The translations under genes were made by a program, and so were the position numbers. A stretch of DNA of 37,300 bases. It comes from Methanospirillum stamsii (GTDB lineage: Archaea > Halobacteriota > Methanomicrobia > Methanomicrobiales > Methanospirillaceae). Numbering within the stretch: the stretch's first letter is position 1; every line of letters begins with the position of its first letter. The DNA lies in NCBI RefSeq assembly GCF_003173335.1, contig NZ_QGMZ01000017.1, forward strand, positions 1 through 37,300. Reading direction: 5' to 3'. The notes under the pieces were generated by a model. The model was given only the letters and a program-made list of their open reading frames with translations. It ran no database searches and had not been told where the DNA came from. Shown here one piece after another: positions 5,000-37,300 of this stretch.

Positions 5000-5058
5000 T
5001 TTCCTTTTTTTAAATCTGAATTTTTGCCTGTAACTATCATCTCACGGGAGAGGTTTTT

Positions 5059-5604: not shown

Positions 5605-6395
5605 GTGACATCAGAAATTCATGGCTCCGGAATGCCACTATTGGTATGAGTTTTCTGCTCACCTTTTTCATAATCGTTCTGCTCCTTCTCATCGTGACAA
5701 AACCTTCTTTTGAAACACTCTATACATCTATTACAAGTCCGGAGATCCAGTTTGCAATCTTTATGAGTCTTGGAACCTCAATAATTTCAACGATTCTTTG
5801 TATTCTGATAGCAGTTCCGGCTGCATATGCTCTTGCCCGGTACTCATTTTTTGGAAAAGGGGCGGTAAATGCCATTCTTGATATGCCGCTAGCTCTCCCT
5901 CCGCTTGTAGCAGGTCTCGGATTACTTTTATTCTTTGGAACCACCGGTTTTGGAAATGCGTTAGCAGATATGGGTCTGGTTTTTGTATTTACTCCGCTTG
6001 GTATTATTGCAGCCCAGTTTTTTGTGAATTTTCCTTATATGCTGAGGATCATGCGTTCAACTTTTGAATCTATCAGCACCCGCTATGAATTTGTCGCAAA
6101 AACATTGGGCTGTACAGATCTCCAGGCAGTATGGCGGGTAACTCTCCCCATGGCTGGTTCTGGGTTTTTTGCAGCATCGGTGATTACCTGGGCAAAAGGA
6201 ATTGGAGAGTTTGGAGCTGCCCTTTTAATTGCCGGAGCAATCCAGTGGAAAACCGAAACCCTTCCGATTGCCTTATTCCTGAATATGTCCTGTGGCAATC
6301 TGAACATGGCAATATCAGCCGCAACGATTCTCATTATTATTTGTATAGTGTCTCTGTACATTTTTGAGCGGTACGGTGGAGCATCGCGATTATAG
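5601..6395 (+). CDS. modB: Molybdate/tungstate ABC transporter permease
   Basis: A 264-aa inner-membrane permease with about six hydrophobic segments (near residues 13-34, 50-75, 90-115, 125-145, 185-205 and 235-255). Family motifs include LPLVAGLGLLLFFG-like text in the second third and the EFGAALLIAGAIQWKTETLP block near residues 204-223, diagnostic of ModB/WtpB-type permeases. It forms the membrane channel for the oxyanion bound by the ModA-like protein and docks the ModC-like ATPase. It starts inside the tsaA stop (ATGA overlap) and is followed after 11 nt by modC, so the operon is intact. Confidence 0.88.
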   Translation: MSDIRNSWLRNATIGMSFLLTFFIIVLLLLIVTKPSFETLYTSITSPEIQFAIFMSLGTSIISTILCILIAVPAAYALARYSFFGKGAVNAILDMPLALPPLVAGLGLLLFFGTTGFGNALADMGLVFVFTPLGIIAAQFFVNFPYMLRIMRSTFESISTRYEFVAKTLGCTDLQAVWRVTLPMAGSGFFAASVITWAKGIGEFGAALLIAGAIQWKTETLPIALFLNMSCGNLNMAISAATILIIICIVSLYIFERYGGASRL

Positions 6396-6406
6396 GGTTT
6401 TGATGT

Positions 6407-8462: not shown

Positions 8463-8481
8463 TTGGTACATCCTGTACCAA
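8463..8481. promoter_or_regulatory. Perfect TTGGTACA-TCC-TGTACCAA operator-like dyad
   Basis: Two perfect 8-bp arms (8463-8470 and 8474-8481) flank a 3-nt spacer 20 nt before the chosen start of the first ABC gene. It also overlaps the extended reading frame that begins at 8463, which supports using the later start. It is the most symmetric site near the MarR gene and a good candidate for its operator or for a metal-responsive repressor. Confidence 0.5.
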
Positions 8482-8501
8482 AAAACTGGAGACTTATATT
8501 T

Positions 8502-10271: not shown

Positions 10272-12037
10272 GAAATGCCGTTGACATCATCACCGATGGA
10301 AAAAGAAAGGCCCTATACAAACCAATTCTCCTGTACATAATTTATGATCTATTCAGAGGAGCTCCATATGGTTTTCTCATTATGGTTCTCTGGGATCTGT
10401 TTGCCCCGGTTATCGACCTGGGTCACATTATGTTTTTAATGGGGGCAATGGTTCTCACCTACCTTATCCAGTATATTGTGGGGAAGTATGCGTTAGTTTC
10501 GGTTCATGAAACCGGATATTCCCTCTGTTCTGAAGCAAGGCTGAATTTAGGAGAACACTTAAGAAAACTGCCGATGGGTTTTTTTAAAGGCCGTGACCCC
10601 GGGGATATTACCCAACTGATGCTTCAGGACATGACCTTTGTTGAGAATATCTTCACTCACCTGATGGCGGATATCGTAGCTGCCTTTACATTACCGATAA
10701 TTCTCATCCTGTTTATGGTAGTGCTCGACATAAAACTTGCCCTGGTCGCAGTAATTACGATACTTATCTCATTTCCATTTCTTCTTGCCTCACAGGTTCT
10801 TGTTCGAAAATACGGTGGCAGGCTGAGTGAAATCCGGGTGTCATCAGGTGCTAGGCTTCTTGAGTACCTGCATGGAATCCGCTATATCAAGGCATATAAT
10901 CTCACCGGAAAACGATTCCGGGTACTTGATGAATCACTTGATAACATGCATAAAGCAATTCTCCGGCTGGAAATTGTTCCGGGAATTGCAGCAACCGGTT
11001 ATATGTCCATGCTCGGTCTCGGGTACGTGATTTTGCTTTTAGTAGCAACTTACTATTTCATGGGAGGAACGCTCACAATTCCGGTTTACCTGGTATTTCT
11101 TATCCTTGGGTATCAGTTATATCAGCCCCTTATTCAGGCCGGACTTGACATCATGGAAGTCAGGTTCATGAGCCTTGCTGCCAACCGAATGAAAGAAGTT
11201 CTTGATGAAAAACCTCTAACCGAACCTGAAAATCCTAAAACTCCGAATAATTTCTCGGTCTCATTTCTGAATGTCACGTTTGGATACCACGAAAATACTG
11301 TCCTTTCTGATGTGAGTTTTTCAGTATCGCCCGGAGAAGTGCTCGCTCTTGTCGGGCCATCAGGGTCAGGGAAGACTACCATAACCAATCTGATTGCACG
11401 GTTCTGGGATGTAAATTCCGGTAAGATTACTCTTGGCGGGGTGGATATCCGGGACATCGGCACAGAAAAACTTCTCTCATACATGAGCATGGTATTCCAG
11501 GATGTCTACCTCTTCAACGATACGATCCGGAATAATATCCTGATTGGAAAACCTGATGCCACAGATGAAGAAATCATAGCTGCTTCCAAAAGTGCCCAGG
11601 CACATGATTTCATAGTCAAGCTTCCGAAAGGGTATGATACGATCATCGGTGAAGGTGGATCTACCATATCCGGTGGAGAAAAACAGCGGATATCAATTGC
11701 ACGGGCATTACTTAAGGATGCACCCATCATTTTACTTGATGAAGCAACCGCTTCCATTGATCCGGAGAATGAACAGGCAATTCAGACCGCAATTTCTGCA
11801 TTAATCAAGTCAAAAACGGTAATTGTGATAGCACACCGGCTGAATACTATCCAGGATGCAGACCGGATTATTGTTATTGATCATGGGAAAGTCACTGAAT
11901 CCGGCAGACACCAGGAACTCCTAGCTCAAAAAGGGATGTATTTTAGAATGTGGAGTGAACAGGAAAAAGCATCACACTGGACGGTGTCTTCAGCAGGCAT
12001 TTCAGAGAAGCTAAGTCCGGGTGGTTCTTTTGTATGA
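10268..12037 (+). CDS. ABC transporter half, TMD-NBD fusion, IrtB/YbtQ-like
   Basis: The 589-aa partner begins at ATG 10268 inside the stop of the preceding gene. Six transmembrane helices occupy roughly residues 15-300. The NBD has Walker A GPSGSGKTT near 362, an unusual signature ISGGEKQR near 467, Walker B IILLDEATASIDPENE near 488 and H-loop AHRLNT. Both NBDs look catalytically complete. In IrtAB/YbtPQ the second subunit carries DEATASxDPENE, as here, versus DEATAFADPENE in the first. The pair probably moves a metal-chelate or related small molecule. An equivalent pair is encoded on the minus strand at 29.6-33.1 kb. Confidence 0.88.
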   Translation: MRNAVDIITDGKRKALYKPILLYIIYDLFRGAPYGFLIMVLWDLFAPVIDLGHIMFLMGAMVLTYLIQYIVGKYALVSVHETGYSLCSEARLNLGEHLRKLPMGFFKGRDPGDITQLMLQDMTFVENIFTHLMADIVAAFTLPIILILFMVVLDIKLALVAVITILISFPFLLASQVLVRKYGGRLSEIRVSSGARLLEYLHGIRYIKAYNLTGKRFRVLDESLDNMHKAILRLEIVPGIAATGYMSMLGLGYVILLLVATYYFMGGTLTIPVYLVFLILGYQLYQPLIQAGLDIMEVRFMSLAANRMKEVLDEKPLTEPENPKTPNNFSVSFLNVTFGYHENTVLSDVSFSVSPGEVLALVGPSGSGKTTITNLIARFWDVNSGKITLGGVDIRDIGTEKLLSYMSMVFQDVYLFNDTIRNNILIGKPDATDEEIIAASKSAQAHDFIVKLPKGYDTIIGEGGSTISGGEKQRISIARALLKDAPIILLDEATASIDPENEQAIQTAISALIKSKTVIVIAHRLNTIQDADRIIVIDHGKVTESGRHQELLAQKGMYFRMWSEQEKASHWTVSSAGISEKLSPGGSFV

Positions 12038-16174: not shown

Positions 16175-17311
16175 ATGGTTAGTCAAACCGAGATGAACGG
16201 AAAATATAGTAAAAGGGAGAAAAAAAGTAAAAGTTCTCTCTTAATGCTCATAATTTCTTTAGGTGTCCTTGTTAGTTGCTTTAGTATGATAGTATCGGGT
16301 GCTGAAGATAACTCCGGTACAAAAATGGTATTAGATCAACGGGGAGAGATGGTGACAATTCCTGAACATGTGGAACGGGTAATTACCATACCAATACCCG
16401 CTGCTTCGATGGTGTATACATTAGATGGTGATGGGAGCAGACTGGTTGGTATGAATCCCTCTTCTATGGCTGCTATTAAAAATGGAATTCTTGGGAAGAT
16501 GGATCCGGATCTGCTTACCATTGAGACAAATTTCATTCAGGGAGGTATGTTTGAACCAAATGTTGAAGAAATCCTGAAATTGGATCCTGATGTTGTTTTC
16601 CAGTGGGCACAGTACGGTGAAGAACTTTACAAACCCTTGGAAGATGCCGGGATTCCAGTTATTTGTCTTAAGTATGGTACTCAGGAGGACTTGGAAACCT
16701 GGATTAAATTATTTGGAGAAGTGTTAGACCGGCAGGAACAAGCTGACAATCTGATTACCTATCAGCAGGGTATGAGTGCGAAAATTAAAGAAAAAACCGC
16801 AAATATCGCTGAAACTGATAAACCTCGCGTTCTTTCTCTTCCTTATGGTGATCAACTGACCGTGAGTGGTAGCGGAACTTACAATGATTATTATTTCGGA
16901 CTTACTGGTGCTAAAAACGTCGCTTCAGAAGTCCCTGGTTCAAGTACCCAGGTAAGTATGGAGCAGATCATCAATTGGGATCCGGAGATCATCTATATTG
17001 GTAACTTTGATGATTTAACTCCACAGGATATTCTTGAAAACCGTATTGATGGACAGGACTGGGCAGGAATTGATGCGGTGAAGAATGGACGTGTTTACAA
17101 AGTTCCCCTTGGCGGGTATCGGTGGGATCCACCAAACCAGGAATCTCCTCTGATGTGGGAATGGTTAATGGAAATTCAACATCCTGAACTCTTTGATTTC
17201 AATCTCCGGGAGGATATGAAAAAGTTTTATAAGGTTTATTATGATTATGACCTTAATGATGAAGAAATAGAGGAAATTTTATTCACGAATTTGAATAACG
17301 CAATCGTTTGA
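16175..17311 (+). CDS. FecB-type substrate-binding protein of the nitrogenase-like operon (PBP-C)
   Basis: The 378-aa protein has a charged N-terminus and a hydrophobic segment (LLMLIISLGVLVSCFSMIVSG, about residues 21-41) acting as signal or anchor, then a class III PBP fold: PEHVERVITIPIPAASMVYTL, NVEEILKLDPDVVFQW, IPVICLKYG, a long helix, IINWDPEIIYIG and KNGRVYKVPLGGYRWDPPNQES. The final FYKVYYDYDLNDEEIEEIL is usual in siderophore and heme binding proteins. It differs clearly from the PBP-A/B/D/E group and is co-transcribed with permease, ATPase and the reductase subunits (1-nt gap to the permease), so it is likely the dedicated receptor of this transporter. Start could also be the internal ATG at 16193. 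Confidence 0.85.
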   Translation: MVSQTEMNGKYSKREKKSKSSLLMLIISLGVLVSCFSMIVSGAEDNSGTKMVLDQRGEMVTIPEHVERVITIPIPAASMVYTLDGDGSRLVGMNPSSMAAIKNGILGKMDPDLLTIETNFIQGGMFEPNVEEILKLDPDVVFQWAQYGEELYKPLEDAGIPVICLKYGTQEDLETWIKLFGEVLDRQEQADNLITYQQGMSAKIKEKTANIAETDKPRVLSLPYGDQLTVSGSGTYNDYYFGLTGAKNVASEVPGSSTQVSMEQIINWDPEIIYIGNFDDLTPQDILENRIDGQDWAGIDAVKNGRVYKVPLGGYRWDPPNQESPLMWEWLMEIQHPELFDFNLREDMKKFYKVYYDYDLNDEEIEEILFTNLNNAIV

Positions 17312-17312
17312 T

Positions 17313-18344
17313 ATGCCTGGAATCAACCTGAGAACTCTGATGAGTTCTCCATATTTTTTTATTCTTCTTCCATTGGCAGTCTTTTTTTTCTCACTTGTTT
17401 GTGGGAGATATCCTGTTGATATTAAGAATGTATTCGGGATTCTTATCTCGCAGGTTTATCCGGTAACACCTTTCTGGCCAGAAATTGATGAACGGGTAAT
17501 TATTAACCTTCGTCTACCTCGTTTGCTAATAGGTATGCTGATTGGAGCAGGATTAGCTGTTTCCGGAGCTGCTTTTCAGGGTATTTTTAAAAATCCTCTG
17601 GTGAGCCCCCATATTCTCGGAGTAGCAGCAGGTGCAGGATTTGGTGGCGTATTAGCCATGTTATTGTCTCAAAGTTCGTTGTTAATATTTATTTTCGCAT
17701 TCATATTTGGAAACCTGGCAGTTCTGGCTGCATATTTCCTTGCAAGAAAGGATAGTGTCACACCCGTTCTGGTTCTCGTTCTTGCCGGTGTAATTATCAG
17801 TGCATTTTTTACTGCAATGATATCTCTCCTGAAATTATGTGCAGATCCTCAGGATCAATTGCCCGGAATTGTGTTCTGGCTCATGGGAAGTCTCATCTCT
17901 GCTAATTATGAGAAATTCGGGTTAATAGTTATCCCGTTTCTTATTTGCGTTTATATCTTGTGGAGACTTCGTTGGAGAATCAATGTTCTTTCTCAAAGTG
18001 ATCAGGAAGCAAGAGCCCTTGGTGTAAACGTTGAGTATGATAAATGGATAATAATTCTTTGTGTTTCAGTAATTGTTGCTCTGGCAGTATCTGTTAGTGG
18101 AATTATTGGGTGGGTAGGACTTGCAATCCCTCATATTGCACGAATGATAGTAGGATCAAATCATCTCTTTCTGATTCCTGCATGCATCTCTCTGGGGGCC
18201 GCTTATCTTGCTTTTGTTGATACCATTGCCCGGACTTTAACTCCTTATGAGATCCCTCTGGGGATATTAACTGCAATTGTTGGTGTGGTTATTTTTGGAT
18301 ATCTCCTGAAAAGAAATCAAAATGGTGGTTGGAATGAATATTGA
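17313..18344 (+). CDS. FecCD/BtuC-family ABC transporter permease
   Basis: A 343-aa membrane protein with about ten hydrophobic segments, the BtuC/FecCD topology. Family landmarks are INLRLPRLLIGMLIGAGLAV near residues 63-82, GAAFQGIFKNPLVSPHILGV with the conserved NPL, VLAGVIISAFF, VFWLMGS, and near the end SGIIGWVGLAIPHIARMIVG. It forms the import channel for a siderophore-, heme- or corrinoid-like ligand. It starts 1 nt after the PBP-C stop and its 3' end overlaps the ATPase gene. It is the only permease of this class in the window despite seven candidate binding proteins, so it may be shared. Confidence 0.92.
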   Translation: MPGINLRTLMSSPYFFILLPLAVFFFSLVCGRYPVDIKNVFGILISQVYPVTPFWPEIDERVIINLRLPRLLIGMLIGAGLAVSGAAFQGIFKNPLVSPHILGVAAGAGFGGVLAMLLSQSSLLIFIFAFIFGNLAVLAAYFLARKDSVTPVLVLVLAGVIISAFFTAMISLLKLCADPQDQLPGIVFWLMGSLISANYEKFGLIVIPFLICVYILWRLRWRINVLSQSDQEARALGVNVEYDKWIIILCVSVIVALAVSVSGIIGWVGLAIPHIARMIVGSNHLFLIPACISLGAAYLAFVDTIARTLTPYEIPLGILTAIVGVVIFGYLLKRNQNGGWNEY

Positions 18345-19164
18345 AATGAAAAATGGAATGTTTAAGTATGGAACAGGAAAAACCATCTTTAAAAATTTAA
18401 ATTTTAACGTAAATAATGGTGAAATTCTCTCAATTTTAGGTCCGAATGGCACTGGGAAAACAACCCTCTTAAAATGTCTGCTTGGAATTCATCAGATTTC
18501 CGGCGGTTCTGTTTATATTAATGGACTAGTGCAGGATAAAGAAAAGAAAAATTGCCATATTGGATATGTGCCTCAAATTCACCAGAGTGTATTTCAATAC
18601 ACTGTCCTTGAAATGGTCCTCATGGGAAGGACCCGGTTTATCAGAAGGTTTTCTTCTCCATCTCATGATGATTGGAATTGTGCTCGTGAATCCCTGGAAA
18701 AAGTTGGAATGGCAGGATTTGCAGATAGGATCTTCTCTGATTTAAGCGGAGGAGAAAAACAGATGGTTCTCATTGCCCGTGCATTAGCATCACAGGCTGA
18801 TTGTATCATTTTTGATGAACCTACCTCGGCACTTGATTACCGGAATCAGTATCATGTTCTTGATCTTATGATCTCTCTGAAACGAGAAGAAAACCTTGCA
18901 ATAATCATGACAACACATCAGCCTGAACATGCAATGTATCTCTCTGATAAAGCACTTCTTATGGATCGTGATGGGAATAGTTGTTTTGGTGAATCTGACA
19001 AGGTATTATCAGAGAATAACCTGAATGCCACCTATGGAATGAATATTGGTATTTTCTCAATTCCTCACAATAACGCCCATCTTAAAGCGATTATTCCGCT
19101 TGTTTCGAATCCTCTCCATCGTTCGTTATCCGGAAATAATTCAGGAAATGAGGTTGCGTCATGA
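18322..19164 (+). CDS. FecE/BtuD-family ABC transporter ATP-binding protein
   Basis: The 280-aa ATPase shows Walker A GPNGTGKT at residues 40-47, signature [15 protein letters not shown] near 142, Walker [13 protein letters not shown] near 161 and an H-loop TTHQPEHAM. It energises the FecCD-type permease just upstream. Translation may begin at 18322 or at the ATG 18334 (MNIEMKNG); either overlaps the permease end. A C-terminal extension of about 40 residues after the core domain is usual for FecE proteins of archaea. Its last codons overlap the NifH-like gene start by 4 nt (ATGA), firmly linking transport and reductase in one translational unit. Confidence 0.92.
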
Positions 19165-19919
19165 AAAAAATTGCAATCTATGGGAAAGGTGGGATTGGTA
19201 AATCAACCGTTACAAGTTCATTATCTGCAGCATTGTCAGTTCTTGGGTACCGGGTTATGCAGATTGGGTGTGATCCAAAAGCTGATTCAACTATAAATCT
19301 GACAAATGGTCAACGAGTTACTCCGGTTATGAATTATTTACGGGAATTTCATTCATGTTCTTCGCTTGATGAGATTAGTCTTGTAGGATATAATGGAATT
19401 GTATGTGTTGAAGCCGGAGGTCCAATTCCGGGTCTTGGATGTGCCGGTAGGGGAATTATTACAACCTTCAACACTCTGGAATCTCTCCAGGCTTATGAAA
19501 TTTTCAAACCGGATTTCGTTTTGTACGACGTTCTGGGTGATGTTGTCTGCGGAGGCTTTGCCATGCCTCTTCGTGAGGGGTATGCCGATGAGGTCATTAT
19601 TGTTACATCCGGAGAAAAGATGTCACTTTATGCTGCGAATAATATCAAAAAAGCTCTGGATAACTTTGAAAATCGGAATTATGCAAAATTGAAAGGACTT
19701 ATTATGAATTGCCGTAACATTGAGAATGAAGAAGAGATAGTAACTCAATTTGCCAAAGAAATTGATAGTCCTATTATCGGGAATATCCCTCGTTCGTCAA
19801 GTATCCAGTACTGGGAAGAGCGAAACATGACTCCGATCCAGGGAGATGTTAATTGTATAATTTCATGCTCTTTTCTTGAGATTGCCTCACAAATTGCTGG
19901 AACCGGGAAGGAAAACTGA
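19161..19919 (+). CDS. NifH/BchL/CfbC-like Fe protein (ATP-dependent reductase component)
   Basis: The 252-aa protein carries the P-loop [10 protein letters not shown] (residues 7-16), switch-type GCDPKADST (36-44), and both 4Fe-4S ligands of the Fe-protein dimer: Cys94 in GLGCAGRGI and Cys130 in [14 protein letters not shown]. All residues needed for MgATP-driven electron delivery are therefore visible. It is shorter than true NifH (about 275-295 aa). It lies between a FecE ATPase and two nitrogenase component-1-like genes, without nifI, nifE, nifN or nifB. It would donate electrons to the NifD/NifK-like complex. Alternatives are a CfbC-type F430 reductase or the methylthio-alkane reductase MarH group; the neighbours argue for an uncharacterised group. 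Confidence 0.92.
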
Positions 19920-21220
19920 TGGAAGCGGAAATTATATCTCTGGATGATATTCTGGTTTCCAAAGAATCAGTTCACCCCCCTGGATTATCACCCGATTGTC
20001 TCCATTATTGTCCCCCCACATCAGCCGGATGGGGAATAGTAAGGGTTGCCCTGTTGGTTCCTGAATCAGCGATGCTCTTTGTTTCACCGTCCGGATGTGC
20101 CCGTCATGCAGCAATTGCAGGAATTCATCTCGGTTTCTGGGACAGGTTTTTTTGTTATCGGTTATCTGAAACTGATATTGTATCCGGAGCATATATGGAT
20201 AACATTCCCCGTGTATCCGAGGAGATATTACGTCGTACTGGGATGAAAGCCTTAATCATCTGTAGTACCTGTATAGATGACCTCCTTGGTTCGGATTATG
20301 ATAACCTGGTAGCAGAAATTGAGAGAAAAACAGGGATTCCAGTTCGATTATGCAGAATGGATCCTATCTGCATGCACACGCCCAATGCACCCCCCCTTAA
20401 AGTCCAGGAGACGGTATACAAGTTTTTGCAACCATCTGCCAAACATGACGATTCAATTAATATTCTTGGAAATTTTGCTAGCATAGATGAAACCAGTGAA
20501 TTTTATGAAGTACTATGCCAAACAAAAGACCGGGAAATTCGGCACATTACAAATTACTCATCTTATGAAGAATTTCAGGTAATGGCTACTTCATCATATA
20601 ATCTTCTCATAAAACCAGCAGGAATTCTTGCAGCACAGGATTTAAAAAACCGTTTGAATATCCCTTGGATTTCGGCATACCATTCATATGGTATTGAGCG
20701 TATTGATGGGATGTACCACATGTTTGAAAAAACATTCAATGAATCATTCGAGTTGGATGATTATCGGGATGAGGCCATTGATACAACAAAGTGGTTTACT
20801 GATGTCCATGGGGAATCAGTTTCGGTTGCTGTAGGTTCAACTGCGAATGCTGCTCCATTTGAACTGGCAAGAACATTTGTGGAAATTGGCATTGATGTTC
20901 CATATATATTTGCTGATGCTGTTCAGGAATGGGAAAAAACGCATGTACAATGGTTAAAAAAACACAATCCCTCTATGAAAGTTTTTTCATCAAGTCATCC
21001 GAAAATGGCTGATGCCCGGGATATGCAATTACATACGGATTACGCCATCGGGTTTGATGCAGGATATTATTGCCCTGGAGCTAAAACAGTGCCCTGGGGT
21101 CTGGAAAAACAACCCTTTGGGTATTCTGGTCTGATATCACTACTTCATGAGATGGATGCCGTGACTGATGTCCCACAGGATTTTAAATCTATGGTTTATG
21201 CTTCCGGCCTGGTGATTTGA
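19919..21220 (+). CDS. Nitrogenase component 1-like subunit (NifD/BchN-like)
   Basis: The 433-aa protein belongs to the nitrogenase component-1 superfamily. P-cluster-type cysteines are present: Cys27 and Cys31 in DCLHYCPPTSAGWG, Cys60 in SPSGCARHAA (like the NifD GxxGC) and Cys118 in CSTCIDDLLGSD (like NifD TCxxxxIGDD). I see no counterparts of the FeMo-cofactor ligands Cys275 and His442, so this is unlikely to fix nitrogen. A C-terminal YYCPGAKTVPWGLEKQPFGY adds another Cys in the likely substrate pocket. Its ATG overlaps the NifH-like stop by 1 nt. With the next gene it should form the catalytic heterotetramer that reduces an unknown, perhaps imported, organic or metal-organic substrate. 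Confidence 0.88.
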   Translation: MEAEIISLDDILVSKESVHPPGLSPDCLHYCPPTSAGWGIVRVALLVPESAMLFVSPSGCARHAAIAGIHLGFWDRFFCYRLSETDIVSGAYMDNIPRVSEEILRRTGMKALIICSTCIDDLLGSDYDNLVAEIERKTGIPVRLCRMDPICMHTPNAPPLKVQETVYKFLQPSAKHDDSINILGNFASIDETSEFYEVLCQTKDREIRHITNYSSYEEFQVMATSSYNLLIKPAGILAAQDLKNRLNIPWISAYHSYGIERIDGMYHMFEKTFNESFELDDYRDEAIDTTKWFTDVHGESVSVAVGSTANAAPFELARTFVEIGIDVPYIFADAVQEWEKTHVQWLKKHNPSMKVFSSSHPKMADARDMQLHTDYAIGFDAGYYCPGAKTVPWGLEKQPFGYSGLISLLHEMDAVTDVPQDFKSMVYASGLVI

Positions 21221-22405
21221 ATGGATAATATATCGGTATTTTTACCTCCGTTTTCTCCCGATTATTCCGGATTTTGTTCAGCTCTGTTTTCCCTGGATGG
21301 AATCCTTGTTATTCATGATGCCGGAGGATGTACCGGGAATTTTACTGCCTATGATGAACCACGGTGGTTTGGATCTTCATCACATGTTTACAGTTCAGGA
21401 CTTCGGGAGATTGATGCAGTAATCGGGGATGACCAGTTTTTCATTGAAAAGATAAACAAGATTGTTCGTGAGAGTGATAATCGATTTGTTGCACTTATCG
21501 GAAGTCCGGTCCCCACGGTAATCGGAACTGATTTTAAGGCCCTTGCTCATATTATCCGAACTTCAACAAAAGTTCCGGTAATTACTTTTGATGCAAACGG
21601 AATTGATTATTATGATGTCGGAGCATCTTCAGCTTTTCTTGCCATTGCAAAGAATTTTATTCTGGAATCCGGAGAGAAAATTAAAAATTCTGTAAATATT
21701 ATCGGAGCAACTCCGCTCGATTTAGGAAATAATGACCCGGAAAGGAGTCTTTGTTCTTTCATTAATGATGCAGGTTACACGGTTATTTCATGTTGGGGTG
21801 GTAACAGCAAAATTGATGCAATAATGCAATCTGGAAAGGCAGAATTGAATCTTGTTGTTTCACGTTCCGGTCTTGCCGCTGCCAGGTATATGGAAGAAAA
21901 ATATGGAATTCCTTATGTTACGGGTGTTCCAATCGGTGAATCAGCAGCAAAATTTTTTTCAGTCACTATTTCAGAATGTATTAAGGACTCTAAATCTCGA
22001 ATCCGGTTAAATAATCTTGATTTAGATAAATCCAAAAATAATGGCACGGCCTGCATAGTTGCAGATCAGGTAATCGGGAATTCATTACGAGAATGTCTAA
22101 TCTCTGATTTTGGATTCAGTGATGTCATTGTTTGTTCATTCTTTGAAATGGATTCAACTCTCTCAATTCCCGGAGATGTACATTTGAATTCAGAAGATGG
22201 TTTGGAAAATCTTATTTCTTCTGGATCATTTGATGTGATTGTTGGAGATCCTCTGATTCAACCCCTGATAGGTGATGTAAAATTAATTCCATTTCCACAT
22301 ATTGCCATTTCAAGTCGGATATTCTGGAATGATTCATTACAATATTTCGGGATTGAGGGAAGTAAATATCTGAAAAAATATTTAAATCCTTATCATGTTA
22401 CCTGA
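21221..22405 (+). CDS. Nitrogenase component 1-like subunit (NifK/BchB-like), reduced ligand set
   Basis: The 394-aa subunit begins directly after the previous stop codon. It has Cys19 (SGFCSALF) and Cys37 (DAGGCTGN, like the GxxGC of NifK), but the third position, where NifK has TCxxEVIGDD, reads GSPVPTVIGTD with Pro96 in place of Cys. The cluster it shares with the NifD-like subunit is therefore asymmetric or uses another ligand, reminiscent of DPOR, where an Asp of BchB replaces a Cys. Later Rossmann-like repeats (VNIIGATPLDLG, LNLVVSRSGLAAARYM) fit the three-domain fold. It ends the operon; PBP-D follows after 138 nt with its own promoter. Confidence 0.85.
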   Translation: MDNISVFLPPFSPDYSGFCSALFSLDGILVIHDAGGCTGNFTAYDEPRWFGSSSHVYSSGLREIDAVIGDDQFFIEKINKIVRESDNRFVALIGSPVPTVIGTDFKALAHIIRTSTKVPVITFDANGIDYYDVGASSAFLAIAKNFILESGEKIKNSVNIIGATPLDLGNNDPERSLCSFINDAGYTVISCWGGNSKIDAIMQSGKAELNLVVSRSGLAAARYMEEKYGIPYVTGVPIGESAAKFFSVTISECIKDSKSRIRLNNLDLDKSKNNGTACIVADQVIGNSLRECLISDFGFSDVIVCSFFEMDSTLSIPGDVHLNSEDGLENLISSGSFDVIVGDPLIQPLIGDVKLIPFPHIAISSRIFWNDSLQYFGIEGSKYLKKYLNPYHVT

Positions 22406-29591: not shown

Positions 29592-31343
29592 TCATCCAGC
29601 CACATCTCCGGGTATCGTCTTCATCTGTCTTCTTACCATGTTTGCAAAGGTTCCATTAGCACTCTTAAGCTCCTCCGGTTTGCCGCTCTCCTTTACCATA
29701 CCATTTTCGAGCACTACAATCTTGTCAGCATTGGCAACGGTACGCATCCGGTGGGCTATTACGAGCACGGTTTTATTCCTGACCAGTTCTGAAATACCTG
29801 CCTGAATTCTTGTCTCGTTCTCCACGTCCAAAGAGGCGGTTGCCTCGTCAAGCAGCACGATGGGAGCGTCTTTTAACAGTGCCCGGGCAATGGAAATACG
29901 CTGCCTTTCTCCGCCGGAAAGTTTCTCACCATTCTCACCGATGACGGTCTGATATCCGTCAGACAATTTACTCACAAAATCGTCGCATTGTGCTAATGTG
30001 GCAACTCTCAAGACTTCTTTATCACTCGCTCCATGTCTTCCGATACGTATGTTCTCCATAACCGAAGTGTTGAAAAGGACAACATCCTGGAATACCACCG
30101 AGTAATACTTGAGCAGTGTTTCGGGATCTACCTTCTTGATATCCTGTTTTCCAAGCAGTATCCTGCCGGAATTAACATCCCAGAACCGGGCGGCCAGTTT
30201 CGCCGATGTACTCTTTCCACCCCCTGATGGTCCGACCAGGGCGGTAATTTCACCCTGCTTTGCAGTGAAAGACACGTTCTGCAGAACCTGTTTTCCGGTC
30301 TCGTAGGAGAAACCGACATCTTCGAACACGATATCGAAATTCTCCGGAGTAAATTCCGTCATGCCGGTATGAATAGGTAAAGCTTCAATCTCTTTCATAC
30401 GGTTAATCCGGATATCAAGCATGAACAAAGCAGCCAGATTATTGAATACTTCGTTGATGGGCTCGAAGATATGTGCTGCGAGGATCAGGAACACGAGGTA
30501 TGTGAAGAGATTCACATCACCTGCTACCAGCAGATTTGCTCCGACCAGGATAACGGTTACAAGTCCCAATTTCAGTATGCCTTTAGCACTGTTGACCAGA
30601 ATACCAAGGAGTAGTTCTCCACGGATGAGATTTTTCTCGTAATCATCAAGCTTCTTGTTCAGGTCGTTGATATATTTTCCTTCGTTGCTGTATGCCTTTA
30701 TCTCCTGGATTGTGTCCAGCCCCTCCTGGATATGTTCGCTGACGTCCCTGTTCTTATCGTAAATGATCTTGTGATTGTTGTGTTGGATCTTTTTAGAGAG
30801 AAGGAGAACCGCTAAGGCAACCGGAGCCGCCCAGAACAGAGCTAGTGTCAGCATCCAGTTGTAGAAAAACAACATGATTCCGATGATTATCAGGAAAATG
30901 ACAGATGCAAAAAGCTGGGGCACTGCATGAGAGAATGTGTGTTCAAGTAACGTATTGTCCTGCATAATCGTGGATGTCAGATCCGAAAGGTTCTTTTTTC
31001 CATAAAAAGACAACGGTAACTTGCGAAGCTTTTCAGCCAATGCCAGCCGGCGATTAGCACTCTCTGCGTAGATAGATATGTATGTGCTCCGGTACTGGAT
31101 TTTTGCAATTATCCATATTATAAAAATAAACAGGACTGCTATTCCAATGTAGTACCGGATATCATTATGGACAACTCCTGCTTGTCCCGTCAGTGGTCCG
31201 AGATATTCATCAAGGAACAGGAAAACGTACACTGCAGGTAGAATCAATCCAAAATTGAGAAGGAATGTCGTAAAAGTTCCCTTAACGAAGTCCTTAGCTC
31301 CGTCCCTTGAGAGGGCCAGCCTCCTCATAAAATATTCATACAT
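29592..31343 (-). CDS. ABC transporter half, TMD-NBD fusion, IrtB/YbtQ-like (second pair)
   Basis: The 583-aa protein has six membrane helices (about residues 20-300) and a complete NBD: Walker A GPSGGGKST near 372, signature LSGGERQR near 474, Walker B IVLLDEATASLDVENE, H-loop AHRMRT. The DEATASLD form corresponds to the second member of IrtAB/YbtPQ pairs. Its start overlaps the preceding ABC gene by 8 nt, so the heterodimer is translationally coupled. Its 3' end is duplicated as the remnant at 28243-28446. Siderophore or chelate import is suggested by resemblance; export of a methylated product is the main alternative. Confidence 0.87.
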   Translation of the reverse strand: MYEYFMRRLALSRDGAKDFVKGTFTTFLLNFGLILPAVYVFLFLDEYLGPLTGQAGVVHNDIRYYIGIAVLFIFIIWIIAKIQYRSTYISIYAESANRRLALAEKLRKLPLSFYGKKNLSDLTSTIMQDNTLLEHTFSHAVPQLFASVIFLIIIGIMLFFYNWMLTLALFWAAPVALAVLLLSKKIQHNNHKIIYDKNRDVSEHIQEGLDTIQEIKAYSNEGKYINDLNKKLDDYEKNLIRGELLLGILVNSAKGILKLGLVTVILVGANLLVAGDVNLFTYLVFLILAAHIFEPINEVFNNLAALFMLDIRINRMKEIEALPIHTGMTEFTPENFDIVFEDVGFSYETGKQVLQNVSFTAKQGEITALVGPSGGGKSTSAKLAARFWDVNSGRILLGKQDIKKVDPETLLKYYSVVFQDVVLFNTSVMENIRIGRHGASDKEVLRVATLAQCDDFVSKLSDGYQTVIGENGEKLSGGERQRISIARALLKDAPIVLLDEATASLDVENETRIQAGISELVRNKTVLVIAHRMRTVANADKIVVLENGMVKESGKPEELKSANGTFANMVRRQMKTIPGDVAG

Positions 31344-33078
31344 GGGCAGCCTCCCTTCCTATAGTCCATTGAACCGATCTCTGATATTCATTCCACATCT
31401 TCGTGTAAATGCCATTCATTCCTAGCAATTCCTGATGATTGCCCTGCTCGGCTATCTTTCCGTTTTCGATAACCAGGATAGTGTCAACGTCCACTACACT
31501 CGTAAGTCTGTGAGCGATCATGAGCACAGTCCTGCCTTCTGTGAGTTTTCCGAGTGCCTCCAGTATCAGGTGCTCGTTCTCTGGATCGGTGAATGCAGTG
31601 GCCTCGTCCAGTACCACGATGGGAGCATCCTTTAGCATGGCACGGGCTAATACTATTCTCTGTTGTTCTCCTCCGGAAAGGTATGTTCCCTCTGTTCCTA
31701 TCTTAGTATCTAGTCCCTGCGGCAATCTGTCGATTATTTCTCTGCATTGTGCTTTTTCCAGTGCAGATTCAACCATTTCGTGGGTTACATCAGGATTGCC
31801 GTACCGGATATTATCAAAAAGGCTGACTTTGAAAAGATGGGTATTCTGGAATACGAATGATATGTTCTGCATGAGTTCCTTCGGGTTAATCTCCTTTACA
31901 TCACTTCCTCCGATGAAGACTTTTCCTTCATCTACATCCCAGAAACGGGGAACAAGACGTGCAATGGTGGTCTTCCCGCTACCTGACGGACCAACCAGAG
32001 CAAACGTCTTTCCTTCGGGAACGGTAAAGCTGATGTTATCGATAGCTTTCTCCGTATTGCCGGGATACCTGAACGATACGTTTTCAAACCGGATCTCATT
32101 TCCCTGTAGGGGTTTCGGGCTTGATGATACCGGCAGGGGCTGTACATTGGTAAGTTCATCAATTCGGTTGATAGCTTCTTCAGCCTCGTGCATTGCATGC
32201 CTGATATACATGCTCCTCATGATGCTTTGAGCAAAGACAGGAGTGAGGAGGATGTAAAAGAGAAGATTTACAATGATGGTACCATAGTTCGCGGAATTAC
32301 CGATCATGAGGATGGCAACCGGTATGAGTATGAAGGCAAAACTGTGGATGCCCACTATATATGCGGTCATTGGGTTTTCCCATGAGATCGCATGTTTGGA
32401 AACCATCTCTTTGTAGTTCATTATACTCTTTTGAAAATTCTTAAAAGAGTAGACGGTCTGCTGAAACACTTTTACAACAGGTATTCCACGAACATACTCG
32501 ACTGCTTCGGTGTTCATCTCCTCAAGCGAGTCCATGTACATTTTCAGGAAATATCGTCCCCTGACTCCCATTGCAAAGCTCATTAATCCAAAAGCAATGA
32601 CAAGAGGTACCAGGCAGGCTAAACCGAGTCGCCAGTCAAAGATAAAGATCAAAATCAGTGATATAACCGGTACAACGATGCTGCCTGCTAAATCGGGGAG
32701 TTGATGGGCAAGAAACATATGCGTTGTAGAGGCGTTATCATCGATAATCTTCCGGATGCGTCCGCAGGTGTTGTTATCAAAGAATCCCAGGGGAAAAGAT
32801 ACTATCTTTTCCATTGACTGTTTTCGCATCTCGACCTCTACCCGGAATGCAGCAAGATGGGAAATACAAAGGGCCAGGAAATAAATGGCAATGCCCGCTA
32901 CTGCTGTAAAGGCAGCCCACCATGCATAGGTACTAATGAGGGTCTGCGATGTTTCCGATGTCGGATTGAGGAATTCCCTGATAATAAGCCATATGAATAT
33001 CAGAGGTATAATGCCAAGCAGGGAACTTATCGCTGATATCACGAGTGATGCAGGAAGTAAATACTTTCTGCCAACCAT
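31336..33078 (-). CDS. ABC transporter half, TMD-NBD fusion, IrtA/YbtP-like (second pair)
   Basis: From the ATG at 33078 the product is 580 aa, with six membrane helices, Walker A GPSGSGKTT near 362, signature LSGGEQQR near 466, Walker B IVVLDEATAFTDPENE and the tail MWNEYQRSVQWTI, all as in the first member of IrtAB/YbtPQ pairs. This start leaves almost no cytoplasmic N-terminus. The frame stays open for 15 more codons upstream and reads protein-like (YEGEIISTLTRFQKY), with AGGTGAG in it but no ATG, GTG or TTG. Either the ATG at 33078 is used without a clear ribosome-binding site or a rare start codon lies upstream. The pair is likely a siderophore-type transporter. Confidence 0.87.
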   Translation of the reverse strand: MVGRKYLLPASLVISAISSLLGIIPLIFIWLIIREFLNPTSETSQTLISTYAWWAAFTAVAGIAIYFLALCISHLAAFRVEVEMRKQSMEKIVSFPLGFFDNNTCGRIRKIIDDNASTTHMFLAHQLPDLAGSIVVPVISLILIFIFDWRLGLACLVPLVIAFGLMSFAMGVRGRYFLKMYMDSLEEMNTEAVEYVRGIPVVKVFQQTVYSFKNFQKSIMNYKEMVSKHAISWENPMTAYIVGIHSFAFILIPVAILMIGNSANYGTIIVNLLFYILLTPVFAQSIMRSMYIRHAMHEAEEAINRIDELTNVQPLPVSSSPKPLQGNEIRFENVSFRYPGNTEKAIDNISFTVPEGKTFALVGPSGSGKTTIARLVPRFWDVDEGKVFIGGSDVKEINPKELMQNISFVFQNTHLFKVSLFDNIRYGNPDVTHEMVESALEKAQCREIIDRLPQGLDTKIGTEGTYLSGGEQQRIVLARAMLKDAPIVVLDEATAFTDPENEHLILEALGKLTEGRTVLMIAHRLTSVVDVDTILVIENGKIAEQGNHQELLGMNGIYTKMWNEYQRSVQWTIGREAAHV

Positions 33079-33357: not shown

Positions 33358-34545
33358 TTAATTATTTACTGTCCAATCTAACCACTGGGCAGATAATAAC
33401 GTTTCTGCTCCCTTTTCATCTACGTTATATACATTCTGATAAAAATCAGAAATCCAGTCCCCTAAATTAATATCTGCAAATTTATCCGGATATGCTGCTT
33501 TTGCGATAATCATCATTTCGATTGGGTATTCAAGTCTTTTATCACAGTTTGATGGCAACCATGGCAGTGAATAGACCTTTTTATCTTTAACTGCTCTCAT
33601 CTCCTGAAGCATCTGGTAATATGGGGCCTCATATAATTCCCGTGCGGGGTGGAATCCCCAGTCGGTAGGCAGTAAAATAACATCAGGATCCAGGGCAAGA
33701 ATCTGTTCGGCATTTAATTTTACAATCTGTCCGGGTTCATTGTAAGCGTTTTTTGCATTTGCAATCTCTTCAACAAAAAATGACTCAACAGAATCTGTTC
33801 CCCATGCATCCGCTGCAGCACCACTTTTCCTGGTTTCTGGTGAGAGACCGAGTAATAATACCGTGGTTTTTTGATCTTCCGGAATATCCTTAGTTCTCTC
33901 TTTAATGAGGTTCACCTGTGTTTCGAGGTACCCTGATAATTCCTCTGCTTCCGTTTGTTTGTCAAATACCTGCCCAAGGATTTTTATTTCATCCGAAATT
34001 GCAGAAACATCTGCATTATTGTTGTCCCGTCCTTTCATGTTCGGTCCATAGGTAACTACAACCGGAATTCCAAGTGATTCAATCCGTTCAACGGTTTTTT
34101 TCATCGACTCATCACTCTGGTAAAATGTGCAGTCCCCGGCACGGATAATTACCACATCCGGTTTTAATTCTGCAATTATCTCATAATTTGGGGGAGAGTT
34201 GTAAGCTGCAACGACAGGAAGGTTTGCAATATCCGGATATAACGCTCCAATGGTGTTCATTCCACCATCAATAGCAAATTTTTCACCCGATGTTGTCTCA
34301 AATGAATAATTGGAAGTTGTAGTAAGGCCATTGGAGCCGACACCAACTAAAGTATCCAGGACACCAAATTTGTACATGACACTTTCCAGTAATCCATCTC
34401 CAATGGTAATAACCTGGGATATCTGGTCCGGAAGTGTTACCGAAGTTCCTCTGCTATCTGTGACAACTTTTTCCGCTGATACCGATACGATACCTACTCC
34501 GAGAATCAGAGTAAGAATTATGATTGCGTTGAAGAGTTTAGACAT
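33358..34545 (-). CDS. FecB-type periplasmic substrate-binding protein (PBP-F)
   Basis: The 395-aa protein has a signal peptide (MSKLFNAIIILTLILGVGIVSVSA) and a class III binding-protein fold: VTDSRGTSVTLPDQISQVITIGDG, EIIAELKPDVVIIRAGD, IPVVVTYG, LNAEQILALDPDVILLPTDWG and a C-terminal KAAYPDKFADINLGDWISDFYQNVYN. It forms a subgroup with the truncated PBP-G, distinct from PBP-A/B/D/E and PBP-C. Ligands are likely an iron, heme, corrinoid or other chelate. It is the last gene of a unit with the class I methyltransferase (57 nt upstream) and the CooC-like ATPase. No permease is adjacent. Confidence 0.85.
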   Translation of the reverse strand: MSKLFNAIIILTLILGVGIVSVSAEKVVTDSRGTSVTLPDQISQVITIGDGLLESVMYKFGVLDTLVGVGSNGLTTTSNYSFETTSGEKFAIDGGMNTIGALYPDIANLPVVAAYNSPPNYEIIAELKPDVVIIRAGDCTFYQSDESMKKTVERIESLGIPVVVTYGPNMKGRDNNNADVSAISDEIKILGQVFDKQTEAEELSGYLETQVNLIKERTKDIPEDQKTTVLLLGLSPETRKSGAAADAWGTDSVESFFVEEIANAKNAYNEPGQIVKLNAEQILALDPDVILLPTDWGFHPARELYEAPYYQMLQEMRAVKDKKVYSLPWLPSNCDKRLEYPIEMMIIAKAAYPDKFADINLGDWISDFYQNVYNVDEKGAETLLSAQWLDWTVNN

Positions 34546-34602: not shown

Positions 34603-35451
34603 TTAATTATTCTCTGCCTTCCATTGAAATTTCATGCCGGGCAATCGTTCATAGTGGGTGAATACCCCGTTTTCTTCCTGAATGAATTTTTCAAAGTATT
34701 TCTGGAATCCGGAAACTGATGAGTCTAGTTCCAGATAATGTTGATACCTGAAATAGTCTTCAAGAGCCTGGATAGATGAAAAAGTCTGTTTCTGGATGAA
34801 TTCATGATATTCAACGGAGGGATATATCCCCATTTCATACAGTACATTAAAAAGAACATCACTTTTTGGACCGGATATATATTCTCTTCCAAATAAATCC
34901 GGCCAGACCATGGAATATAACAGTTCAAACTGAGGGATATCTGCATGCCAGAACAGGACTACCTTCTCCTGGCAGATTGAATTCATCTTCTCTATTGCGG
35001 CTTTTATATCATGCATTCCCAGAGAATAGGATGCCAGAACAAGATCGAATTTGTTATCAAAATCATCCGGATTAACATCCTCCCATCGCTTTTGAATAAG
35101 AGAAATATTTTGGATGTTCTCTGATTCTATCCGTTCATGAAGTACTGTTGCCATCCCCGCTGATGGTTCTACTACGGTGACCTGTCCTGCCATCCGGGCC
35201 ATTGGGATGGTCAGAACTCCCGGCCCAGGGCCAATCTCAAGAACCTGCGAATCCGGTTTGAGGTGTAACTCCTGGATCAATTTTTCACGGTTTTTGTTAA
35301 TGTCTGAATCACAGCCATAGTTTTTTAAATAATCTCGTGCTCTTTCCGGAGTGTCCCAGTAACGTGGGCATGATATCGCAGCAGAATCTCCCCTGTTATT
35401 CATGCTATCCGACATCATCGTTTTCCATTGTTCATTCCAGTCTATTTTCAT
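34603..35451 (-). CDS. Class I SAM-dependent methyltransferase, ~282 aa
   Basis: I favour the ATG at 35451 (MKIDWNEQWK), a usual beginning for this methanogen methyltransferase type, over the in-frame ATG at 35484; neither has a clear ribosome-binding site. Motif I VLEIGPGPGVLTIPMA lies near residues 70-85 (EIGPGPG form), then VTVVEPSAGMATVL and FDLVLASYSLGMHDI. The C-terminal half is rich in aromatic residues (FRYQHYLEL), possibly a hydrophobic substrate cap. The acceptor is unknown. It sits between the CooC-like ATPase (51 nt upstream) and PBP-F on one strand, again pairing a methyltransferase with a binding protein. Confidence 0.8.
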   Translation of the reverse strand: MKIDWNEQWKTMMSDSMNNRGDSAAISCPRYWDTPERARDYLKNYGCDSDINKNREKLIQELHLKPDSQVLEIGPGPGVLTIPMARMAGQVTVVEPSAGMATVLHERIESENIQNISLIQKRWEDVNPDDFDNKFDLVLASYSLGMHDIKAAIEKMNSICQEKVVLFWHADIPQFELLYSMVWPDLFGREYISGPKSDVLFNVLYEMGIYPSVEYHEFIQKQTFSSIQALEDYFRYQHYLELDSSVSGFQKYFEKFIQEENGVFTHYERLPGMKFQWKAENN

Positions 35452-35502
35452 AATATCATAATAATTTACGACTTTTTTCAACAAAAAAAGAAATTTAAAA
35501 AA

Positions 35503-36261
35503 TTAATTATTTGGAATTTCTTTTATCAACGCCTCAATTGGGGCATACTGGCGGGTGATTGCATCACCAGAAAGACCTGTTGACAAAATATCTGGATCAT
35601 CAGGAATTTCTGCAATAATATTGCCTGGTTTAGAAAGCTTCTTACGAATTGTTGCACTCATTTCTGAATTAACCCGGTTTAAGATGAAATACAAAGATAT
35701 ACCCATTCCATCTGTTATGGTTGTAATTTTTTCTGCAAGTCCAACTGACTCAAATGAGGGATCGAGAACCATAAGGATCCCATCTGCTTCTTCATCAATA
35801 CCTCGTCCGAAATGTTCAATCCCTGCTTCCGTATCGGTAATTACGATATCATTTTCAGCAAGTTGTAATGACTGCAGGAATTGTCTGGAAAGCATACCCA
35901 TTGGGCAGGCACAACCTTCTCCAGAATGCTGAATTTTTCCGATTGATACTAATGCAATGTTATCCTTTCTTGAAACATAATCGGCTGGAATTGAGTCAAA
36001 TTTCCATGGTTCTTCGATAAGTTTTACTTTTGCATAATCCGGAGCAGCAGCCATGATCTTCTCCTTCATACCTGGTCTCCCCCCGAAATATTCCATCAGG
36101 TCGACAGGAGCATCAATTCCAATGAGCCGGTGAAGACCAATATTGGATTCATCTGTATCAACTACTAAAACCCGGAAATTTTTTCGGGCATATTCATGTG
36201 CAAGCATTGCTGTTAGGGTACTTTTTCCGCTACCCCCTTTACCACAGATAATTAGTTTCAT
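35503..36261 (-). CDS. CooC-like metal-insertion ATPase (MinD/ParA superfamily)
   Basis: The 252-aa protein has the deviant Walker A CGKGGSGKST (signature Lys8, P-loop Lys13), VVDTDESN after strand 2, and a CxC motif, Cys117-Ala-Cys119, in EGCACP. This CxC corresponds in position to the Cys pair of CooC (Cys112/Cys114 in the characterised protein) that binds Ni or Zn at the dimer interface. DTEAGIEHFGRGIDEEAD is the family's Walker B region. CooC inserts nickel into CO dehydrogenase; related ATPases serve other metalloenzymes. No CODH gene is in the window, so here it may serve the local metal pathway. It lies between PBP-G and a methyltransferase gene on one strand. Confidence 0.85.
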   Translation of the reverse strand: MKLIICGKGGSGKSTLTAMLAHEYARKNFRVLVVDTDESNIGLHRLIGIDAPVDLMEYFGGRPGMKEKIMAAAPDYAKVKLIEEPWKFDSIPADYVSRKDNIALVSIGKIQHSGEGCACPMGMLSRQFLQSLQLAENDIVITDTEAGIEHFGRGIDEEADGILMVLDPSFESVGLAEKITTITDGMGISLYFILNRVNSEMSATIRKKLSKPGNIIAEIPDDPDILSTGLSGDAITRQYAPIEALIKEIPNN

Positions 36262-36298: not shown

Positions 36299-37204
36299 TC
36301 AGTTCACAATCTCCAGGTATTCAAGCATCAGTGCATCCATGATTTTTTGCGTCATCGTTTCATCGGTGTTATACAATTTTACGATGTAGTCATGTATCCA
36401 GGTCTTCAAATCAACATCGGCGAATCTATCTGGATAAGTAGCCTTTGCTGCAATCATTACGTTTATCGGGAATTCAAGACGTTCTGATTTACAGGGAGTT
36501 GCGGTGAGTGAATACACTTGTCCATCTTTCAGTGCCCGCATTTCCTGGATATTTGTATAATTTGATTCGTATAACTGACGTGGCGGATGATACCCACTCC
36601 AGGTCGGAAGAATGATTACATCAGGATCAAGTGCCAGCATCTGTTCTGAAGAGATGAGGTTATTCCCTTTATCCTGGTAGACATTTCTTACATTGACCAG
36701 ATCTTCCATCTGTGCAACTTCAACCGTTCCAAGACCAAATGCCTGGCCAACACCACCTTTCGTGAGTGCACTGGTTGGTGCTCCAAAATACAGGACGGAT
36801 TTTATTTCATCTTCAGGGATGTCATGTGTTTTACTGGTTACATCATCAACGGCATCCTGCATTGTCTTTACAATTTCTTCCGCTTTATCTTCTTTTTTAA
36901 AGATTTGACCTAAAAGTTCTATCTCATCATAAATTGTATCAACTTTAGGATTTTCGTAACAATCCGGGTACTGCAAAACCACAACTGGAATACCCATTGA
37001 TTCGATTTGCGTTAGAAATTTATCCGTTTCTTCTTTAGCTGAACCCATGTCGCGTAAAATTAAAAGATCCGGGTTCAGATTTGCAATGGTCTCGACATTT
37101 GCTTTACCATATGGTCCGGAGCCTAATGCCCCAACATTTACTGTTAACGCCCATCCCTTCTTGACCAGAGGCATATAAAGCCGCGCCCATTCGTTTTTGA
37201 CCAC
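36299..37204 (-). pseudogene. FecB-type substrate-binding protein lacking its 5' end (PBP-G)
   Basis: The frame gives 301 aa from a GTG at 37204 and aligns with PBP-F from about its residue 105 onward: ANVETIANLNPDLLILRDMG, IPVVVLQYP, EQMLALDPDVIILPTWSGYHPPRQLYE and KATYPDRFADVDLKTWIHDYI are shared. The signal peptide and first ~70-100 residues expected for lobe 1 are missing. A TAA lies in frame three codons upstream (37211-37213), and the DNA beyond it does not resume the homology. The simplest reading is a gene whose 5' part was removed by rearrangement or insertion, leaving a cytoplasmic, non-functional fragment. A sequencing error or frameshift alone would not explain the loss of homology. 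Confidence 0.7.
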
Positions 37205-37229
37205 CCTATTTTAAGGAGACAGATCAATT

Positions 37230-37251
37230 CCCTCCGTATGTAAAAGGAGGG
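37230..37251 (+). promoter_or_regulatory. Hairpin holding a strong ribosome-binding site
   Basis: CCCTCC (37230-37235) and GGAGGG (37246-37251) form a perfect 6-bp stem with a 10-nt loop. The right arm is part of AAAAGGAGGGG, an excellent Shine-Dalgarno sequence 9 nt before a GTG at 37261. Pairing would hide the site, so it could control translation of a gene running off the window. Confidence 0.4.
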
Positions 37252-37260
37252 GATAGGCAG

Positions 37261-37300
37261 GTGAAAACGATGGCAGATGTACAACGAATGGCTACCTTAT
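37261..37300 (+). CDS. Possible start of a plus-strand gene running off the window
   Basis: GTG at 37261 (or ATG at 37270) follows the strong AAGGAGGGG site and opens a frame, VKTMADVQRMATL, to the end of the window. Only 13 codons are visible, so no family can be named. Because it abuts the truncated PBP-G, it may belong to a mobile element that replaced the 5' end of that gene, which is speculation. Confidence 0.3.
   Translation, partial: MKTMADVQRMATL

Follow-up and report, generated by a model that had tools for sequence, protein, structure and literature searches.

Which metal, and which client, does a CooC-like ATPase serve when no CODH gene stands beside it? The question is raised by a protein of 252 residues encoded on the minus strand (35503–36261) of the window, a stretch of 37,300 bases that makes up a whole contig (C9) of the host genome (3.74 Mb, 89 contigs, 99.9% complete). 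The original prediction had described the gene as lying away from CODH genes, and indeed no CooS or CdhA is found on the window contig.

The window protein and its operon

The open reading frame at 35503–36261 is genuine and begins with ATG. The best relative of solved structure is CooC1 of Carboxydothermus (PDB 3kje; phmmer E 1.3e-15 over residues 1–241), whose CxC motif (Cys112/Cys114) aligns with C117 and C119 of the window protein. The AlphaFold model (mean pLDDT 92.8) also has 3kje as its top Foldseek match (TM 0.71). Both the deviant Walker A motif (GKGGSGKST) and the C117-A-C119 pair, set in the loop EGC117-A-C119-PMG, are intact, and E115, G116, C117 and C119 show no variation across 38 aligned clade members, which bears out the earlier description of a CooC-like ATPase with an intact Cys117-x-Cys119. 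In Pfam, only the general P-loop domains CbiA, ParA and AAA_31 score over their cut-offs. In CooC1 the homologous cysteines form a binding site for Ni and Zn (PMC6006190, excerpts), and by analogy the window protein would be expected to hydrolyse ATP and to bind Ni/Zn as a dimer.

The host genome encodes further CooC-like proteins. One, on contig C56, is 51% identical to the window protein and belongs to a run FmdE-PBP-FecC-ATPase-MT-CooC; another, on contig C1, is 29% identical and lies in a gene cluster with CooS; a weak fourth match lies on C78 (E 4e-4).

The genes around the ATPase lie on the same strand in the order substrate-binding protein (PBP), CooC-like ATPase, methyltransferase, PBP and two ABC half-transporters. 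The gap from the CooC-like gene is 37 bp to the upstream PBP (Peripla_BP_2; 36299–37204, minus strand) and 18 bp to the class I SAM-dependent methyltransferase (34603–35484, minus strand), a member of the MT family that recurs as a partner in the clade. The listed start of the methyltransferase is TTG, and an ATG 11 codons further in may be the real one. Structural matches to its model cover many small-molecule methyltransferases, headed by histamine methyltransferase, and point to no substrate. After a further 57 bp comes the second Peripla_BP_2 protein (33358–34545, minus strand), which has a signal-peptide-like start by eye and whose PDB matches include HI_1472 and 4ino/4ls3 (deposited as nickel/iron-binding). 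Then, after 279 bp, come two ABC half-transporters (31336–33078 and 29592–31343, both minus strand) that overlap by 8 bp, the first with the exporter-type domains ABC_membrane and ABC_tran. No NikA-type protein is present in the window run.

The run of two PBPs and a methyltransferase that the original prediction named as partners is thus there, but the upstream PBP has a broken or missing 5' end. By eye it has no signal peptide, and on the 5' side it passes into a repeated, IS-like sequence (37190–37300, minus strand) at the contig end. The repeat matches a copy on contig C37 at 93% over 88 bases, and that copy lies at the start of a transposase-like ORF (judged by eye, the helix-turn-helix matches all being below the Pfam cut-off). 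Because the 5' side of the operon runs into the repeat and the contig end, its native promoter is out of view.

Binding proteins are frequent on this contig, which encodes seven Peripla_BP_2 proteins and several methyltransferases. Two exporter-type ABC half-transporter pairs (8463–12037 and 29592–33078) adjoin PBPs and possibly serve as importers.

A branch of the CooC family and its gene neighbourhoods

Among 150 genomes of the order, relatives of the window protein at 43–64% identity (E 1.1e-57 or better) occur in 26. One extra partial clade match lies at 1.9e-40, and the next match in the order is found only at 35% identity (3.1e-30), which leaves a clean gap. Scanning GTDB yielded 71 named loci of this importer-linked clade. 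The taxa represented include Methanomicrobiales, Methanothrix, ANME-2, Archaeoglobi, Alkanophaga, Bathyarchaeota, Desulfofundulus, Desulfotruncus, a Moorella MAG, Deltaproteobacteria, Nitrospiraceae and Clostridiales. The loci are not phylogenetically independent, and MAG contigs may be misbinned (e.g. L076, titled Nanosynbacter).

A single branch separates 25 importer-linked from 25 canonical rows with a support of 100/100 under a mixture model, and in a 125-row tree the importer-linked clade is separated from CODH/ACS-linked CooC at SH-aLRT 93; there being no outgroup, the clade is defined as one side of a branch. The tree and the motif counts exclude six truncated or broken sequences (L066, L107, L109, L110, L111 and L113). 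The long-branched L168_5, which has no CxC, adjoined the clade in the 125-row tree and was dropped from the 25+25 tree with the other long rows. Of 67 full-length clade rows 66 carry the motif EGCxC, as do 7 of 53 canonical rows; L105 has GCAC with no preceding E and sits on a long branch. The longer loop EGCACPM[GN] is found in 61 of the 67, and the canonical rows vary (e.g. GCLCPEN, ECYCREN). Two loci (L065 and L073) carry three CooC-like genes in tandem, and EGCKC replaces EGCAC in the first copy. The window protein belongs to a real and coherent CODH-independent branch of the CooC family.

The gene context of the 71 loci ties the clade to importers and METHYLTRANSFERASES. Importer parts lie within 5 kb at 46 of the 71 (FecCD/PBP type at 32, Dpp/Nik type at 18, some with both), and a methyltransferase of the MT or OMT family lies within 5 kb at 37. 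Counted more strictly, as members of the same-strand run, importer parts of any kind occur at 37 of the 71 loci, PBP at 24, FecC at 19, MT at 24, flavin reductase at 17, FmdE at 15, SBP5 at 13, TrmO at 7 and OMT at 3. Where at least 3 kb is available on both sides of the gene (45 loci), there are 15 at which no importer gene lies within 5 kb. Next to canonical CooC, importer parts were found in 0 of 45 rows, or 1 of 49 once four rows missed by the ORF caller were added, a contrast that is partly circular because the partner HMMs were built from the clade loci themselves. The caller had missed CooC in L157, L164, L167, L169 and L189, of which L164 is importer-linked and the other four canonical by score; at L169, FecCDE/PBP genes are found on the opposite strand at a distance of up to 5 kb. 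Adjacency of an MT gene counts for little by itself, since the family is widespread (128 of the 150 genomes).

Individual loci illustrate the range of partners. At L155 the run reads SBP5-CooC-OMT-DppB-DppC and continues with two ABC ATPases. A Nitrospiraceae locus (L096) has the run TonB-siderophore-type receptor-CooC-TrmO-PBP-FecC-ATPase, with the receptor match (86 bits) below the cut-off. In an Archaeoglobi locus (L108) a TrmO-FmdE fusion (10713–11813), PBP, FecC, ATPase and OMT surround CooC. Desulfotruncus arcticus (L093) encodes a TrmO-CooC fusion of 414 residues, with no stops in the reading. The CooC-like part was matched at E<=1e-40 in 17 of the 113 genomes of that organism's order; among these 17, a single genome shows the fusion, and eight more have TrmO on the same strand, no further than 1 kb away.

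The presence of several unrelated families of SAM methyltransferases beside one kind of ATPase, once fused to it, suggests metal-release chemistry, in which ligand methylation may help to free the metal. Metal transport seems to be a repeated setting for TrmO-like enzymes: in the window itself a molybdate-type binding protein, a TrmO_N protein, a permease and an ABC ATPase with TOBE form one run (4154–7453).

Candidate metals and clients

A match to NikR in or near the run was found by tblastn at 3 of the 71 loci, all of Methanothrix type. At L077 the genes FmdE-CooC-flavin reductase-MT-P1B ATPase-SBP5-TrmO-DppB-DppC-DppDF-nikR lie on one strand, with nikR 66 bp after DppDF; at L075 it follows DppDF at 30 bp, and at L083 it lies 1.9 kb upstream of FmdE. 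Four Methanothrix loci reach past DppDF (L074, L075, L077 and L082), and nikR is there in two. The NikR proteins of L077 and L083 score over the NCBIfam cut-offs (219 and 220 bits against 111). The binding protein of L155 has nickel_nikA as its best family, at 177 bits and under the cut-off of 393. In the host genome nikR is on contig C6, away from both clade copies, and there is no operator-like site beside it.

A delta-proteobacterial NikR box, GTGTTAC-N13/14-GTAACAC, has been published (PMC545781, excerpts). We searched for this consensus in 203 operon upstream regions (35,785 bases from 72 of 73 loci, the window and L005 included) and compared the counts with 300 permutations of the half-sites. 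With up to 2 mismatches, sites upstream of operon genes were found at 4 loci (permutations: mean 0.11, maximum 2), and with up to 3 mismatches at 10 loci (mean 1.8, maximum 9); neither count was reached by any of the 300 permuted half-sites. Related loci cannot be counted as independent. The sites include one 54 bp ahead of CooC in a Methanoculleus locus (L047), one 67 bp ahead of it in a Bathyarchaeota locus (L071), one before the gene upstream of CooC in Archaeoglobi (L108) and one before the P1B ATPase in Methanothrix (L078). A scan of the whole loci with three forms of the box at up to 2 mismatches gave 39 sites against 20–37 in five shuffles, no clear excess, and as read from sequence the NikR-box signal is confined to operon upstream regions. 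No shared operator was readable in an upstream alignment of 13 FmdE genes. A relaxed archaeal NikR pattern, which with one mismatch allowed matched 32 times in 1.07 Mb, proved too loose and was set aside. NikR may act at the operator-like sites, and these relatives suggest that the window copy, too, handles nickel.

FecCDE-type importers also include the B12 type. Such importers, together with the methyltransferases, would suit the salvage of cobalt, a corrinoid or a metal tetrapyrrole (e.g. F430), with the module re-metalling or stripping the tetrapyrrole. At L067 a BchH/CobN-like chelatase, over the BchH cut-off, adjoins PBP-MT-CooC. The original prediction had offered a metal tetrapyrrole as one possible target, and this neighbour speaks for it, but the commoner partners point to metal-chelate uptake, most likely of nickel. 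The chelatase was noticed in that single locus, and Rfam gave no cobalamin riboswitch ahead of the CooC run in 14 bacterial loci. We consider salvage of this kind unlikely. As a clue to the metal, riboswitches were uninformative in these 14 of the 71 loci: two cobalamin riboswitches in L093 are both on the opposite strand, a SAM riboswitch is 6 kb off in L112, a T-box lies just 3' of the gene in L081, and the remaining matches are one rRNA and one tRNA.

Molybdenum or tungsten would give another meaning to the FmdE partner, whose Pfam name comes from the operon of Mo-formylmethanofuran dehydrogenase: the ATPase would handle Mo/W (or thiomolybdate) for that enzyme and its relatives. A MOSC protein immediately upstream in L088, the TrmO_N protein within the window's molybdate-type operon (4154–7453) and the presence of HI_1472, a protein with a molybdate role, among the PBP matches are in keeping with this. 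Against it stand nikR in the run, the NikR boxes and the NikA-type binding protein in relatives, as well as P1B-type ATPases bearing CPC, which lie 1.7–2.7 kb from the CooC-like gene on the same strand at seven loci. P1B ATPases with CPC are cation movers. The site of CooC1, moreover, binds Ni/Zn (PMC6006190, excerpts). A Mo/W module is likewise an unlikely reading of the clade.

Relations with CODH were examined by genome content and by neighbourhood. CODH was scored as present in the 150 genomes when CdhA was over its cut-off or CooS matched at E<=1e-20; for canonical CooC the window protein served as query, and the count takes in matches at E<=1e-20 and none that are weaker. Canonical CooC occurs in 61 of the 150 genomes, and all 61 have CODH. 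Among the 26 genomes with the importer-linked clade, CooS is present in 20 (as fragments only in G135, and with CdhA as well in G047). The other six (G013, G016, G071, G079, G112 and G120; 96–99% complete) have neither CooS nor CdhA, so that strict co-occurrence with CODH genes is not seen. The association of the clade with any CODH (20/26) is not above background (Fisher p 0.18), that with CooS alone is weakly positive (20/26 vs 61/124; Fisher p 0.016), and that with CdhA is negative (p 0.028). No CooS or CdhA homologue occurs at any of the 71 clade loci; the surroundings of canonical-type hits hold one (over 200 bits) at 19 of 39 loci, a set made up of 40 fetched loci and L012, less L164 and L175, which are both of importer-linked type. 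A CooC dedicated to CODH is therefore rejected by the separate clade (100/100), the 71 loci and the six CODH-free genomes together, in line with the earlier expectation that the window protein would stand apart from CODH CooC.

The excess of CooS in clade genomes could still reflect a maturase that supplies nickel to a CooS encoded elsewhere in the genome. Fold and CxC are as in CooC, the host genome has a CooS, and 10 of the 26 clade genomes have CooS with no canonical CooC (E<=1e-20). One CODH clade (B) is also reported beside ABC transporters (PMC13056359, excerpts), so importer linkage by itself leaves a tie to CODH elsewhere possible. Yet the host genome's one CooS above the family cut-off lies on contig C1, already clustered with its own CooC, and no CdhA over the cut-off is present in that genome. 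In the six genomes with neither enzyme, among them G079, a single contig at 99% completeness, the client cannot be those CODHs because they are absent there. Moreover, 19 of the 150 genomes carry CooS with neither kind of CooC (E<=1e-20), no CODH gene occurs at the clade loci and the clade is separate in the tree. We give an unlinked CODH maturase little credence.

The lone CooS genes of Methanomicrobiales L146, L147 and L149 have no CooC nearby and none of the clade's importers adjoining. Canonical-type CooC with no CooS/CdhA in the fetched stretch occurs at L156, L159, L160, L161 and L162, in Methanothrix, ANME/Methanosarcinales and Bathyarchaeota, and possibly represents another unlinked branch.

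The original prediction's other target, a nitrogenase-like complex, shares the MinD-type fold of its NifH proteins with CooC and lies 13 kb away on the same contig, but partnership with this NifHDK cluster is hardly credible and is rejected by distribution, NifD-like matches (E<=1e-30) occurring in 3 of the 150 genomes and in 1 of the 26 clade genomes (the host only), and NifD-, NifK- and NifH-like matches being absent from the 71 other neighbourhoods. The cluster itself forms a run PBP-FecCD-ABC ATPase-NifH-like-NifD-like-NifK-like (16175–22405), and the NifD-like matches of G030 and G054 are 30% identical with one internal TGA each.

Proposed working and known systems

With importers and methyltransferases as partners, and nikR in some relatives, the clade probably helps to bring nickel in. 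We therefore favour the reading that this CODH-independent clade of the CooC family, the window protein included, serves nickel-chelate import, which we judge to be probable.

A metal chelate would be brought in by a substrate-binding protein and an ABC importer of the FecCDE or NikBCDE/Dpp type; in the window, the exporter-fold ABC pair possibly takes the importer role. Once in the cytoplasm, the chelate would be altered by a SAM methyltransferase (MT, OMT or TrmO-like) so that the metal is let go, and FmdE and flavin reductase, often present, may assist. In the CooC-like homodimer the two EGCxC loops would together offer four cysteines to the metal, a putative site proposed from homology to CooC1. 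By the same analogy the nucleotide state would open and close this dimer metal site, and ATP turnover would hand the metal over to Ni proteins. The donor would be the imported chelate, in place of the cell's nickel pool that serves for CODH, and in several relatives the operon may be under NikR control. Release by ligand methylation, like the client, belongs to the proposed part of this scheme.

Taken as a whole, the branch may represent an energy-using step of nickel acquisition common to methanogens, methane/alkane oxidisers and anaerobic bacteria, in which an imported chelate is opened by methylation (MT, OMT or TrmO-like, once fused), the freed Ni is captured by the dimer, and all is under NikR. 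We put this fuller account forward tentatively, as a possibility that has somewhat less than an even chance of being right.

Methanogens have a high nickel need. Little is known of their nickel uptake, according to a 2023 paper (PMC10617489, excerpts), and a CooC branch with importers, and with NikR in some relatives, offers a concrete, testable route. It also carries a warning against reading a CooC-type protein as a sign of CODH. An importer-tied CooC branch is not described in the excerpts compared of PMC6006190, PMC10617489, PMC13056359, PMC545781, PMC9164220, PMC2667541, PMC9765008, PMC11247825, PMC10134865 and PMC7883539, and may still be in print; nor do the parts of the literature compared describe metal-release chemistry by SAM methyltransferases.

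The nearest known system is CooC itself (CooC1 of Carboxydothermus hydrogenoformans, PDB 3kje–3kji), which the clade resembles in its MinD-type fold, deviant Walker A motif, CxC loop and length of about 250 residues, and presumably in ATPase activity. The clade differs from CooC of this type in its EGCACPM[GN] loop, its links to importers and methyltransferases, its lack of CODH linkage and its occurrence in CODH-free genomes. The CooC proteins of CODH/ACS and archaeal CdhA clusters share the family and the CxC with the clade, but they adjoin CdhA/CooS (often two CooC genes by CdhA) and lie on the opposite side of the tree.

The COG0523/CobW-type GTPases are analogous as NTP-driven metal carriers with a Cys motif, some of them tied to metal homeostasis (PMC9164220, excerpts). 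They are G3E GTPases with CxCC, whereas the window protein is of CooC/MinD type with CxC only and gave no CobW match in the Pfam scan.

The NikABCDE-NikR operon is matched at some clade loci by the NikA/Dpp-type binding protein and permeases, by the terminal nikR (L077, L075) and by NikR-box-like sites. What the clade loci have in addition is the CooC-like ATPase itself, together with methyltransferases, FmdE and flavin reductase; parts of the PBP/FecCD type are commoner in them than those of the Dpp/Nik type (32 vs 18 of 71), and the window has an exporter-fold ABC pair.
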